From NCBI GenBank assembly GCA_944393195.1, contig CALXZG010000005.1, positions 1 to 64,000 on the forward strand: 64,000 nucleotides of DNA. The letters are read 5' to 3'. The number at the start of each line of letters is the position of its first letter. Position 1 is the first letter of the stretch. The notes beneath the pieces were generated by a model that worked only from the letters and a program-made list of their open reading frames with translations, was not told where the DNA came from and made no database searches. Below, piece after piece: positions 50,960-56,505 of this stretch. This DNA comes from an uncultured Alphaproteobacteria bacterium. GTDB lineage: Bacteria; Pseudomonadota; Alphaproteobacteria; CAAHEQ01; UBA3637. The translations under genes were made by a program, and so were the position numbers.

Positions 50960-52921
50960 ATGATTGAAAACAAATCAGAAATTGGTCATTCTATGGTTGA
51001 AATGCTCGGTGTGTTAGCTATCATGGCGGTTCTGACAATTGGGGCTGTGGCCGGCTTTCAATACGCGATGGACAAATATCGGGCAAATGTGACGATACAG
51101 GAAATGAATCAACGCGCCATCATCCATTCGGGACAACTGTTAGCCGAACAACCGGTTAATGATACAGAGTTTCCCTCCACCACGTATCAAGGGTATCCCG
51201 TAACGACAACCCCTGTTATTGATACAGAGGGATATCCCTATTTTCAAATTACCTTAGAACAGGTACAAGGCGGTGTTTGTCACCAAATTTTATCGTCTGA
51301 TTGGCAATGGCCTGCTTTAATACGGGCCAACGGCATTGAATACGAAGAAGACGATTCGATTTGCCGAACCGATGCCGGCAATCGGATGGAGTTTATTTTT
51401 CCGGCTGATTTAAATGGGGAAAGCGGGGAATTCCGAAAAGCGTGTCAAACGGACAGCGATTGTGTCAGCGTCTGTGGTCGATGCGTGGATAAGCGGTGCG
51501 AAAGTGAATGCGGTGATGGGACAAGCTGTGTACGCACATATGACAATGCTTCGTTTTTTGCCTGTTGTCGACATGAAGATATTTTAAACGGTGTGTGTTG
51601 TCCATCAATCGTTAACGGACAATGTTGCGCCAGTATCGGCAGTTGTTGCCCGGCAGAAGAACCTTTAATGGATAAGAATGGTAATTGCCACACTTGTGAC
51701 GAGGATGCCTCGGTTAACGTTGCGGGTAATACGGTCATGTGCAACATTTGTGACGGGAAAGAAGGCAGAACCTTACGTGAATTAAACGGTAGCACCTGCG
51801 TCTTGCCCTGTCCGGACGAAACACCGCTTTTGGATTCCAGTGGCAATTGTCACACCTGTGACGACGACGGACGTGTCAACACCGTTAACCAAAGCAAGTG
51901 CGACGTTTGTCCCAACCGGGAATGGTTCGGCGGATTATGTGCGTATCCTTGTGAAGACGGTTATTTTGCCAGCAGTTCTGGATCACCGGTTTGTCAACCC
52001 TGTACAAAAGTAACCAGTGTTGCCGTAACATATATGAAGGATAACGGTCATTGTTCCACAATGTGTGACGGATCCTCCCCGGAAAAACCAAAACGGATAC
52101 GTATCGGGATGAGCAACGGAGCTTCGCAATGCGTCTTGGAAACCTGCCCGTCGGATTTACCGTTACGTGATACATGGGGGAGTTGTTATGCCTGTGATGT
52201 GACATTCAGTGTTAATCTATCAACACCGTCAGATTGTGGTCTTTGTCCTAACCGCGTATTACGGGGAAGTTCTTGTGCAACCAAATGCCCGACAGGCACG
52301 CATGCCGAAAACGGACAATGCGTCTGCGATGGCGATAACCAATTTCAGGATCTTTACGGCGTTTGCTATTCCTGTGACACGGATACGTCTGTTGAAGTCG
52401 GACAATTAATGGAAAATTGTGATGTCTGCGGGGATGCTCGAGTTGTAAACAAATACGGCAACGGCTGGATAAAATGCCAAAAGAAATGTGCCGACGATGA
52501 ATACTTTACGCTTCAAGGATGTAAAAAATGTAGCGATCCAACCATTAAATACGACGAAGTATGGGGAAATTGTTCTGTCTGTAACTATTGCGACGGAAAC
52601 GACGGCCGCGCCAAACGATACTGCGTTTCCCGCGGACATTACTGTGCACTAGCCTGTGAAGATGGAGAAGTCATGGCCGGCGACGGAACCTGCCATACAT
52701 GCGACGATCCGGATCCGTTTGCCGATTTAAACAGCGCATGTAAAACCTCCTGCGCCGGACAACGCTATTTGGTGAGTAGCCGATGTTACAAATGTCCGCC
52801 GGATACATATAGTACGGACAGCAAAGCCTGCATCGCCTGTCCGTCGGATAGGACAACATTAACACGTGCGGGGGATTGCTTGGCCTGTGGCGGTGTGTGG
52901 GATAGTGATTCTTGCGTATAA
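50960..52921 (+). CDS. Prepilin-like Cys-rich repeat protein 2
   Basis: 653 residues. The prepilin signal is leader...G then HSMVEMLGVLAIMAVLTIGAVAGFQ, with Glu at +5. A ~150-residue pilin-like domain follows, similar in layout to the gene at 31193 (both have a TDxxFP or QEFP segment and a GVCxxI block). From ~residue 160 to the end lie dozens of Cys in repeats of about 50 residues of the form GxCxxCDxDxSVN...CxxCPNR, at least five of them. No C-terminal enzyme domain is seen. Extracellular disulfide-rich stalk or adhesin is a reasonable guess. AAAAGGG precedes the start. The operators B and D lie upstream. Confidence 0.82.
   Translation: MIENKSEIGHSMVEMLGVLAIMAVLTIGAVAGFQYAMDKYRANVTIQEMNQRAIIHSGQLLAEQPVNDTEFPSTTYQGYPVTTTPVIDTEGYPYFQITLEQVQGGVCHQILSSDWQWPALIRANGIEYEEDDSICRTDAGNRMEFIFPADLNGESGEFRKACQTDSDCVSVCGRCVDKRCESECGDGTSCVRTYDNASFFACCRHEDILNGVCCPSIVNGQCCASIGSCCPAEEPLMDKNGNCHTCDEDASVNVAGNTVMCNICDGKEGRTLRELNGSTCVLPCPDETPLLDSSGNCHTCDDDGRVNTVNQSKCDVCPNREWFGGLCAYPCEDGYFASSSGSPVCQPCTKVTSVAVTYMKDNGHCSTMCDGSSPEKPKRIRIGMSNGASQCVLETCPSDLPLRDTWGSCYACDVTFSVNLSTPSDCGLCPNRVLRGSSCATKCPTGTHAENGQCVCDGDNQFQDLYGVCYSCDTDTSVEVGQLMENCDVCGDARVVNKYGNGWIKCQKKCADDEYFTLQGCKKCSDPTIKYDEVWGNCSVCNYCDGNDGRAKRYCVSRGHYCALACEDGEVMAGDGTCHTCDDPDPFADLNSACKTSCAGQRYLVSSRCYKCPPDTYSTDSKACIACPSDRTTLTRAGDCLACGGVWDSDSCV
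51645..52740 (+). repeat. Cys-rich protein repeats within prepilin-like gene 2
   Basis: Units starting GNCHTCDED, GNCHTCDDD, GSCYACDVT, GVCYSCDTD and GTCHTCDDP each carry CxxC pairs; spacing varies, so the repeat is old and diverged at DNA level. Confidence 0.7.
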
Positions 52922-53988: not shown

Positions 53989-54068
53989 TTTTTTGATCCT
54001 TTCGAAAATCATTAACAACACGCCGTCAGTCTACGGCGTTTTTTACCAAAAGTCAAAGATTATATGTC
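53980..54068 (-). repeat. Promoter-leader duplication, copy 2 (minus)
   Basis: Reverse complement of copy 1 over ~85 bp. Around the -10 box this copy forms a short stem (GCCG-tagactga-CGGC); in copy 1 the same positions read ACCA and CAAC, so the stem is lost there. Confidence 0.9.
54028..54056 (-). promoter_or_regulatory. Promoter of the glycine-zipper lipoprotein
   Basis: On the minus strand TTGACT (54056-54051), 17-bp spacer, TAGACT (54033-54028). Confidence 0.6.
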
Positions 54069-54121
54069 CTTACCATAAAAAATTGATTACCCTAAAATAT
54101 GTTAATGATTATCAATCCTAA

Positions 54122-55444
54122 TTAATTTAACGAACCGCTTTCTTTAAAAGCTCTTTTTAACAATTCTTTCAAAGCATACTTTGTATGAATACAAAAGGGT
54201 TTATCTATTTCTTGCTGTGAGCCAAAAAGATCCTCTGCTTGTTTGGGACATCCCCGACCACAAATATAAAGCGCCGGACACTTTAAACACTTCTTTTTAT
54301 TAACTGTTAAATTATGCCGCCACTTTTGATAAGTTTCTGTTTTAAAAATATCCGAAAAACAAGATGAGTTAATGTTACCAATTGTTTCTCGTTCACTATT
54401 CCAATATCCATGACAAACTGTTATTTCTCCATTTGGTCTGATCGTTAGCTGTTGAGCACCAACAGCATTACAATCATTATACTTCAAACTATCACTTGAA
54501 AATGCTTTTATTTTTCTTAAAATCCGATCGTCCTGAACACCTAATTTTGACAATTCATCATAGGCTTGAAATAAAAATCGAGATGCTTTTTTATAATATT
54601 CTTTCCAATTATTGTTAGGGGTTGTAAAATGTAATAAGTTAAAATTAATATTCTTAATATTAATATCCCTTAACCATTTGAGGAAAAATACATTATTTAA
54701 TACTGCCTCCGAAAGAGTAACGGATAATCCGAAATTAACACCGTTTTCTTTTAATTTTTCTATCGATCTCATCACAACATCATATACACTTTTGGTGTTT
54801 GCTTTAAAATACCGATTAAAATCATTTTCATATTTTGGACCATCCAAAGAAATTCCCAAAGAAATATCATATTTTTTAGAAAATTGTATTATTTCATCTG
54901 TTAATAATGTCGCATTTGTAATCATTGAAAATTTTAAAGGTACTTTTTTCTGAACTGCCTGTTGAACCATATACCTAACAGCTTGAAAAAACATGGTTGG
55001 TTCGCCACCGTAAAAAATCACTTGACCGCTTGACTGCTTTGTTGTTCGTAAATGATCAGCAAATTGATCAAGAACATTATCTATTGTCTCAAATGAAATA
55101 TGTTGAGCTTTTTTATTATTAATATGTCCGATAAAACAATACCGACATCCCAAATTACACCCTCCATAAGGTATTATATATAATAAACTAATTTTATTAC
55201 GTAGAGAATTTATTGACTTTTTCAAAAATAATTCTGCATCTTTATCTTGTTTTTTGTCTTTAACCAAAATACCACATCGATACAATAAATTTAATTCTGA
55301 AGAAGAAAAATTATCAAATTGACAAGCCCAAATTCGTTTAACCATATCTTTTGACAAAATAATCGGCTCAAACAATATGCTATTAAATATGATATATTTT
55401 TCTCTCGTTATCAATATCTTATGTGCAAATTTAGATAACATCAT
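54122..55444 (-). CDS. Radical SAM/SPASM peptide maturase (candidate RiPP enzyme)
   Basis: 440 residues. CNLGCRYC (C96, C100, C103) is the radical SAM 4Fe-4S motif; GGEPTMF, SMITNATLL and ISLDGP follow as in the family. The C-terminal SPASM region has CNAVGAQQLTIRPNGEITVCHGYW and CLKCPALYICGRGCPKQ, binding two auxiliary clusters. The N-terminal ~90 residues (KFAHKILITREKYIIFNSILFEPIIL) resemble the leader-peptide-binding region of RiPP maturases. Start ATG 55444 or 55441; it overlaps the upstream gene by 14 bp. The 59-residue Cys peptide gene at 56172 is the likely substrate. The region is clearly richer in A and T than its neighbours, suggesting transfer. Confidence 0.9.
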   Translation of the reverse strand: MMLSKFAHKILITREKYIIFNSILFEPIILSKDMVKRIWACQFDNFSSSELNLLYRCGILVKDKKQDKDAELFLKKSINSLRNKISLLYIIPYGGCNLGCRYCFIGHINNKKAQHISFETIDNVLDQFADHLRTTKQSSGQVIFYGGEPTMFFQAVRYMVQQAVQKKVPLKFSMITNATLLTDEIIQFSKKYDISLGISLDGPKYENDFNRYFKANTKSVYDVVMRSIEKLKENGVNFGLSVTLSEAVLNNVFFLKWLRDINIKNINFNLLHFTTPNNNWKEYYKKASRFLFQAYDELSKLGVQDDRILRKIKAFSSDSLKYNDCNAVGAQQLTIRPNGEITVCHGYWNSERETIGNINSSCFSDIFKTETYQKWRHNLTVNKKKCLKCPALYICGRGCPKQAEDLFGSQQEIDKPFCIHTKYALKELLKRAFKESGSLN

Positions 55445-56132
55445 TATTCCTTATATGTACAATTAATTTTTGTAAAAATTGTGTTAGATTTACAGATTCC
55501 TGATATGCGGAAAATCCCTTTTCCAACAACACATCAACATCATGATAACCAGTTTTTTTAATTCGTTGAAACACGGGATGTATTTTATGCAATATCACAA
55601 AGGAAGCAAGCTCGGCTATTTTCCAAACATTGAAATCCGTTAAGGTATCTTCATCATATTTTTTTCTAATAGAGATAAATATCTGAGAAAGTATTACTTC
55701 ACACAATAAAATATAAATTTGAATATAAAACCTACTTTTACCTATCATTGCGGGAATAACAATGCTATTCCCATACCAATCAGATATTCCCATCCGATAC
55801 TGGGATAACAAAACGTAATAACTCGGAATTTTATATCCGAAAAAATTTTCTATACCTGTCATCCAAAAAGGTTCATATCTTTTCCAATACCGTTCAAAAA
55901 ATAAAATCGCTTTGTTAATACCATCCTTATTTACTTGAAAATCCGCATAGATGTTCTTTTTTAATTTTGATCGCCATTTATCAGGAATATCATTATGTAT
56001 AGATAGGGCAAGTTCACATGGAAATTGAATTTGTTTTGCCCTATTCAAAACCCCCAAAGGATCTTCCTCTTGAAAAGTCTGAATTAAAGCCAATTCTTCT
56101 TTATATCGAGAATAAAAAAAATGAAACATCAT
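55431..56132 (-). CDS. Unrecognised protein between precursor peptide and maturase
   Basis: 233 residues from ATG 56132; ATG 56129 is equally possible and a TTG at 56153 lies inside the hairpin. I do not recognise a family. It is mostly helical with many aromatic residues (FFERYWKRYEPFWMTG), and a segment YIQIYILLCEVILSQIFISI that could be membrane-associated. No signal peptide. The Glu in CEVILSQ sits where secreted Zn proteases carry HExxH, but His is missing. Between a precursor and a radical SAM enzyme it may be a partner, protease, or immunity protein. The gene begins right after the terminator-like hairpin, so its expression depends on readthrough. Confidence 0.75.
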   Translation of the reverse strand: MMFHFFYSRYKEELALIQTFQEEDPLGVLNRAKQIQFPCELALSIHNDIPDKWRSKLKKNIYADFQVNKDGINKAILFFERYWKRYEPFWMTGIENFFGYKIPSYYVLLSQYRMGISDWYGNSIVIPAMIGKSRFYIQIYILLCEVILSQIFISIRKKYDEDTLTDFNVWKIAELASFVILHKIHPVFQRIKKTGYHDVDVLLEKGFSAYQESVNLTQFLQKLIVHIRNNDVI

Positions 56133-56135
56133 TAT

Positions 56136-56163
56136 AAAAAGGCTACCTTGCAAAAGGTAGCCC
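56136..56163 (-). terminator. Attenuating hairpin after the RiPP precursor gene
   Basis: On the minus strand GGCTACCTT pairs with AAGGTAGCC (9 bp, 4-nt loop) and is followed by TTTTT. It lies 9 bp after the precursor stop and ends at the next start codon, the usual way to make much precursor and little enzyme. Confidence 0.85.
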
Positions 56164-56171
56164 TCCCTTTA

Positions 56172-56351
56172 TTAAGAAGCACGTTGATTTATTTTTTGCG
56201 CCATAACGGACTGTTCATACAACCGTTTAATAGACACATTTATTTTCTTTGCCCGAGGAGCATCCCAACTGCAAGAACCATAACAAGAACAAGGCAATGC
56301 AGAAGTTTCAACAGTCTTAATATTTTTCTTAATAATTAAATTTTTCATCAT
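56172..56351 (-). CDS. Candidate RiPP precursor peptide
   Basis: 59 residues from ATG 56351, or 58 from the adjacent ATG 56348, which is better spaced from AAAGGAG. The leader is basic and hydrophobic (KNLIIKKNIKTVETSA), followed by the putative core LPCSCYGSCSWDAP with Cys at 21, 23 and 27, then a 26-residue tail (RAKKINVSIKRLYEQSVMAQ plus six). No signal peptide. The leader/Cys-core layout next to a radical SAM/SPASM gene fits thioether or ranthipeptide-type RiPP precursors. The long C-terminal tail is unusual for a leader-core peptide. No database family could be checked. Confidence 0.75.
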   Translation of the reverse strand: MMKNLIIKKNIKTVETSALPCSCYGSCSWDAPRAKKINVSIKRLYEQSVMAQKINQRAS

Positions 56352-56375
56352 ACACTCCTTTCAATTGACATATAA

Positions 56376-56403
56376 ATAATACCACATATTTTATTAAAGT
56401 CAA
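56376..56403 (-). promoter_or_regulatory. Putative promoter of the RiPP-like operon
   Basis: On the minus strand TTGACT (56403-56398), 16-bp spacer, TATTAT (56381-56376), about 25 bp before the precursor start. Confidence 0.6.
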
Positions 56404-56505
56404 ACAATAATATAAATTGATTTTTAAAATTTTTCATTGCTTTTTTATCAAAAATCGGACAATATAGCCGTACGCTGCTTTGTTTCGTAAACCACAAGGA
56501 TTGAT

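Follow-up and report, generated by a model that had tools for sequence, protein, structure and literature searches.

The 64,000 nucleotide stretch analysed here (the window) carries a horizontally acquired trio of genes on the minus strand, between positions 54122 and 56351. The genes encode a 59-residue (or 58-residue) peptide, a 233-residue protein and a 440-residue radical SAM/SPASM enzyme. The trio is conserved in related bacteria, the enzyme belongs among the SPASM peptide maturases, and the middle protein has a predicted gluzincin fold from which the zinc ligands have been lost. We favour, at a little better than even confidence, the reading that the cassette makes a RiPP, a radical-modified peptide with a Cys core, and that the zinc-less partner binds this peptide as a form of self-protection.

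A sequence-only reading of the same DNA had described the small gene with its strong ribosome site, the 233-residue gene and the radical SAM/SPASM gene; all are present as described. Added here are an identity for the middle protein, a conserved tail on the precursor, an exchangeable partner slot and evidence of insertion. The outcome is a testable trio of peptide, enzyme and partner from an uncultured gut lineage. The features are listed in Table 1.

Table 1. Features of the cassette, with positions in the window.
Feature	Position	Strand	Basis or remark
RiPP precursor gene	56172..56351	-	59 aa from first ATG, 58 aa from second ATG (56348)
Shine-Dalgarno AAAGGAG (including AAGGAG), just upstream of precursor	56355..56361	-	direct reading
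Promoter-like TTGACT-16-TATTAT, TG-extended -10	56376..56403	-	10/12 matches, consensus match only
Hairpin then U-run, gap between precursor and middle gene	56136..56167	-	equivalents in related cassettes
233-aa partner (middle) gene, from ATG	55431..56132	-	predicted gluzincin (M1-like) fold, zinc-binding His gone
Radical SAM/SPASM peptide maturase, 440 aa	54122..55444	-	Pfam, NCBIfam, Cys motifs, tree
Acquired AT-rich insertion, extent	53989..56505	.	bounded by lipoprotein gene (start 53988) and DedA/VTT gene (start 56506)

Precursor peptide and maturase

The window precursor has a leader (MKNLIIKKNIKTVETSA), the Cys core LPCSCYGSC and a conserved tail (SWDAPRAKKI..IKRLYEQ...). Homologues adjoin maturase genes in G005, G016, G015 (two copies) and G030 (two copies), and a further homologue adjoins the middle gene in G020. 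A CxC pair (CSC, CKC, CDC or CAC) and an IYK-like C-terminal tail are found in 8/8 complete alphaproteobacterial precursors, and also in the intact precursors of RF39-type Bacilli. Thus, the core does not vary at random. All three Cys of the window peptide had been put forward as modification sites. Of these, only the first two, which form the CxC, are conserved; G015 lacks the third, and in G016 it is differently placed. The long tail, previously thought unusual, is present but is no anomaly, being a conserved element of these precursors. Across homologues, conservation is higher in the tail after the core than in the leader. In cassettes with the 233-residue gene the tail reads [WF][DH][AS]PxAKK, then a helix-like segment ending IY-, VY- or LY-. 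In RF39 and G030 it takes forms such as NLKDIYKKA, KEVRKIYIK and NLTKVYREKLA. The element, which is common to two phyla, may act as a follower peptide or may belong to the product itself. Leader matches to the CLI_3235 and CA_C0660 bacteriocin precursor models fell below cut-off and were discarded.

The family sample of 43 genomes contains five close maturase members and eight full-length 233-residue proteins. The complete trio recurs in the same order in the window genome, G005, G016 and G015. The G015 locus has two intact precursors and a third, degenerate copy (L110:8805-8960), which keeps CxC and has lost the conserved IYK tail. In G030 there is a maturase with two precursors, and an RlmA-like methyltransferase replaces the middle gene. 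Beside this cassette (L108:6457-7791) is a gene for a 444-residue protein whose match to radical SAM is only marginal (E 0.98). G020 has only precursor and middle gene at one site; at the other, the middle gene is intact and the remnant of a maturase gene follows it. In G017 and G033 the intact middle gene stands alone. Between the window and G005, dN/dS was 0.15 for the precursor, 0.38 for the middle gene and 0.19 for the maturase, and it was 0.07 between the two intact G015 precursors; the values are rough because synonymous sites are near saturation. This comparison of sequences indicates that the trio is kept by purifying selection in related gut Alphaproteobacteria.

The hairpin between precursor and middle gene has a folding energy of -20.4 kcal/mol, calculated for a 66-nt piece. 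An equivalent occupies the same place in all five cassettes that have both a precursor and a 233-residue gene (window, G005, G020, G016 and G015), and the five sequences are unrelated to each other. A hairpin of the same kind, in the same place but of differing sequence, in four other cassettes points to a conserved element of the operon, the effect of which would be an excess of precursor. Hence, the hairpin is likely an attenuator. A simple terminator scan did not list it. The promoter scan gave 19 matches, compared with 14 expected in shuffles.

The maturase has the radical SAM motif CNLGCRYC at residues 96-103 (CX3CX2C; C96, C100 and C103) and a seven-Cys SPASM set (C325, C344, C386, C389, C395, C399 and C418). 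These Cys residues are invariant in eight relatives. Pfam matches to Radical_SAM (6e-20) and SPASM (2e-8) are above cut-off. The best NCBIfam match, extending from end to end, is to FibroRumin (TIGR04136; 218.8 bits, cut-off 400), and the second best is to PapB (157 bits, cut-off 340). The enzyme groups with these RiPP SPASM maturases and not with sulfatase activators. Identity as a sulfatase maturase was rejected (121 bits, cut-off 349), as were the Viperin models, whose match is confined to the radical SAM core. The maturase profile matches PDB 8vpo over 3-432, N-terminus included, and this entry is given as an RRE reference structure in PMC12710340. This makes an RRE-like N-terminal region, about residues 1-85, likely. 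Searches of viral contigs, with the maturase sequence and with the maturase alignment, gave no close relative.

In the maturase tree the five alphaproteobacterial enzymes group together (100/99). They lie beside the RF39 enzymes L150-L152 (100/99), within an RF39 clade (93/94). FibroRumin enzymes form a separate clade (100/99), sister to the RF39-type clade. The nearest maturases, with 34-41% identity, are those of RF39-type Bacilli cassettes (L019-L021, L145-L153). These also have a CxC core followed by an IYK-like C-terminal tail, but differ in having an RlmA-like methyltransferase or GNAT as partner. PapB, a ranthipeptide maturase, is alike in acting with Cys-based cores. PapA uses CX3D pairs (PMC9413430); the window core, CSCYGSCSWD, has CxxD, with no CX3D/E, and no Cys/Asp pair is conserved across homologues.

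FibroRumin systems (Ruminococcus, Lachnospiraceae and Spirochaetaceae) resemble the window cassette in the N-terminal region of the maturase, in having adjacent short CxC precursors and in having no obvious leader peptidase. Together with the end-to-end TIGR04136 match, these features would fit an ordinary, outlying FibroRumin member. We consider this very improbable. The window enzyme scores 219 bits where 400 are needed and a true FibroRumin enzyme reaches 591, and the two fall in separate clades. Moreover, FibroRumin loci have several precursors, no gluzincin-like gene and peptides without the AKKI..IYK tail. They also have a UvrA-like ATPase (loci L023-L027, and most FibroRumin loci examined), which is absent from the window cassette. 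The proposal that the system differs from familiar classes therefore stands as far as score and clade are concerned, with the qualification that FibroRumin is its nearest named relative. Less probable still is that no RiPP is made, the small ORF being incidental and the maturase acting on another protein. In its favour is that no product is known. Against it, the precursor is under purifying selection and adjoins the maturase in nearly every intact locus. Conservation of the precursor beside homologous maturases supports the proposal of a RiPP locus.

A predicted gluzincin fold in the middle protein

The 233-residue protein was earlier said to be unrecognisable. This is correct for sequence families, since no match was found in Pfam, NCBIfam, PHROG or PADLOC; a PDB sequence search also returned nothing. 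The predicted fold, however, is that of a zinc-less gluzincin. The AlphaFold2 model is confident (pLDDT 90.9, pTM 0.85). Foldseek matches of the model were non-significant (best E 2.1). In VIA structural alignments most of the best 48 rows were zinc metallopeptidases of several families. The best row was the M1 enzyme F3 (Z 8.1, a borderline value; rmsd 3.4 over 157 residues). Other rows were LTA4 hydrolase, M4 and M9 enzymes, the inactive M1 fold in TFIID, and IrrE. BFVD gave weak matches, some of them zincin-like. The prediction is therefore of a fold like the catalytic domain of M1 aminopeptidases and of TAF2-type inactive M1 folds. Compared with M1 aminopeptidases, the protein has no HExxH zinc site, only 233 residues and 6-9% sequence identity. 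In 8/8 full-length homologues HExxH is replaced by [CYFW]ExxL, with both His gone. Every homologue retains E145 and E174.

Sibling cassettes in G003 (L116:5964-9309) and G005 (L117:18-3280) encode a 233/234-residue, gluzincin-like protein at the equivalent position, with the precursor gene on one side and the SPASM maturase gene on the other. In these proteins the zinc motif is intact (HELTH, with a downstream WxxSE). The sibling cassettes constitute a different RiPP system, with a tandem SASYCCEASETVSV precursor containing a repeated KDMKSASYCCEASETVSV unit and with a further radical SAM gene. A MAFFT alignment places HELTH onto [CYFW]ExxL and WxxSE onto W170-E174, so that the invariant E174 is aligned with the third-ligand Glu of the siblings. 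The Glu-to-Glu spacing is 29 residues in both the window protein and the L116 protein. Independent models of the 233-residue protein and of a HELTH sibling match the same M1 domain (1z1w 175-414 and 177-414, respectively). When a profile built from the HExxH-less family was searched against 229 proteins of the loci studied, the two siblings ranked 1 and 2 (E 0.0021 and 0.0046). In hhalign, P was only 0.011. The HELTH sibling protein had no NCBIfam match at 0.01. Each of these lines is modest alone. Taken together, the alignments and models make it very probable that the middle protein is a zinc-less relative, either descendant or cousin, of the HELTH peptidase-like partner. The cassettes thus offer a natural series, from intact HExxH partner to zinc-less one, at a single operon position.

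The distribution of the 233-residue protein is narrow. In a 385-genome sample across the class, no genus other than the window's own yielded it. Searches of 10 genomes carrying maturase relatives, and of plasmids, did not find it either.

The partner slot and its possible roles

The gene in the partner slot of RF39 cassettes encodes an RlmA-like methyltransferase with the RlmA zinc ribbon. Across 288 RF39 genomes, 13 have the maturase, 15 have cassette-type RlmA and 10 have both (P = 9e-13, uncorrected for shared ancestry); in the other 5 genomes with RlmA there is no maturase. A GNAT gene occupies the slot in three RF39 loci, and a UvrA-like ATPase gene does so in FibroRumin loci. On the evidence of gene content, the slot is exchangeable between clades. 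RlmA-like genes related to those of the cassettes, without a nearby maturase or precursor, were seen at L185-L189 (RF39 genomes G633, G649, G516, G470 and G503).

RlmA-type enzymes methylate 23S rRNA at G745/G748, at the exit tunnel, and this protects producers, the tylosin strain among them. Self-resistance is likewise a known role of UvrA-like and GNAT proteins. Both the 233-residue protein and RlmA are retained as orphans in genomes or loci with no maturase, which suggests that the slot gene may serve in self-protection. Recent decay could also account for such orphans.

We propose the following mechanism. The 58-residue precursor, with its short basic leader, CxC core and conserved C-terminal tail, would probably be made in excess because the hairpin attenuates read-through. 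The SPASM enzyme would recognise the leader, the tail or both, and would modify the Cys core by radical chemistry, most likely joining a Cys to a neighbouring residue through a thioether. The partner, descended from the HExxH gluzincin of the sibling cassette or sharing descent with it, would have lost zinc and kept a peptide-binding fold. Its most likely activity would be stoichiometric binding of the mature or precursor peptide, best read as self-protection of the producer.

The partner could as well be a biosynthetic helper, or chaperone, that presents the precursor to the maturase, or shields it from host peptidases, and has no part in immunity. This is the chief alternative. Its gene is adjacent to and co-directional with the maturase gene, which it overlaps by 14 bases, and its HELTH relative fills the same slot in the sibling cassettes. 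Against this, full-length copies occur without a maturase in G017, G033 and G020, and maturases of the same clade in G030 and RF39 manage without it. We regard a helper role as unlikely, at well below even confidence. Lower again, and improbable in our view, is that the protein is still a peptidase or hydroxylase, its active site rebuilt around E145 and E174. The invariance of these residues speaks for it, and HExxH proteins of RiPP clusters can be alpha-ketoglutarate hydroxylases as well as proteases (PMC12636437). However, both HExxH His are replaced in every full-length homologue, and none of the columns that are invariant across the family is a His, Cys or Asp, which leaves no plausible metal site. 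The HEXXH motif of alpha-ketoglutarate peptide hydroxylases (IPR026337) is likewise absent from the family.

Self-protection by peptide binding is the role we prefer for the window partner. An extension to the other clades is more speculative, and we offer it as a doubtful but possible generalisation. The cassettes would form a mobile radical-SAM peptide family with a self-protection gene in the exchangeable slot. In Bacilli, an RlmA-type 23S rRNA methyltransferase would point to an exit tunnel target; in gut Alphaproteobacteria, a zinc-less peptidase fold would sequester the peptide rather than cut it. If the immunity role is correct, the target of each peptide would be predictable from the gene that fills the slot. 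A literature search found no paper for FibroRumin, and none combining RlmA with radical SAM and RiPP.

Acquisition of the cassette

On either side of the window cassette are a DedA-like gene and a lipoprotein gene. In the congener G016 these two are neighbours, separated by a 158-bp gap, with no cassette between them. Hence, the window carries an insertion of ~2.5 kb. The GC content of the cassette is 0.30, compared with 0.47 for the remainder of the window, and every cassette with a maturase is AT-rich relative to its own surroundings. Judged by neighbourhood and composition, the window cassette is horizontally acquired. Recent acquisition, first suspected from composition, gains from the empty site in G016 and from a prophage-borne copy. 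The latter is the trio of G016 itself, which lies elsewhere in that genome, in a prophage-like element (L179; contig C21, 1-12378) with serine integrase, DUF2924, sigma-like and ParB-like genes. Here, the trio is beside a phage-type S-adenosylmethionine synthetase gene, the product of which could supply SAM to the radical SAM enzyme. The simplest reading of the tree is that RF39-like Bacilli were the apparent source, donor and direction being inferred. This places on record what seems to be a transfer between Bacilli and Alphaproteobacteria, with one of the copies carried by a prophage-like element.

Elsewhere in the window, positions 50960-52921 (plus strand) encode a 653-residue protein that begins like a type IV pilin (SMVEMLGVLAIMAVL) and is very rich in Cys, arranged in CxxC repeats. 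Comparable pilin-like N-termini also occur in L110 and L112.
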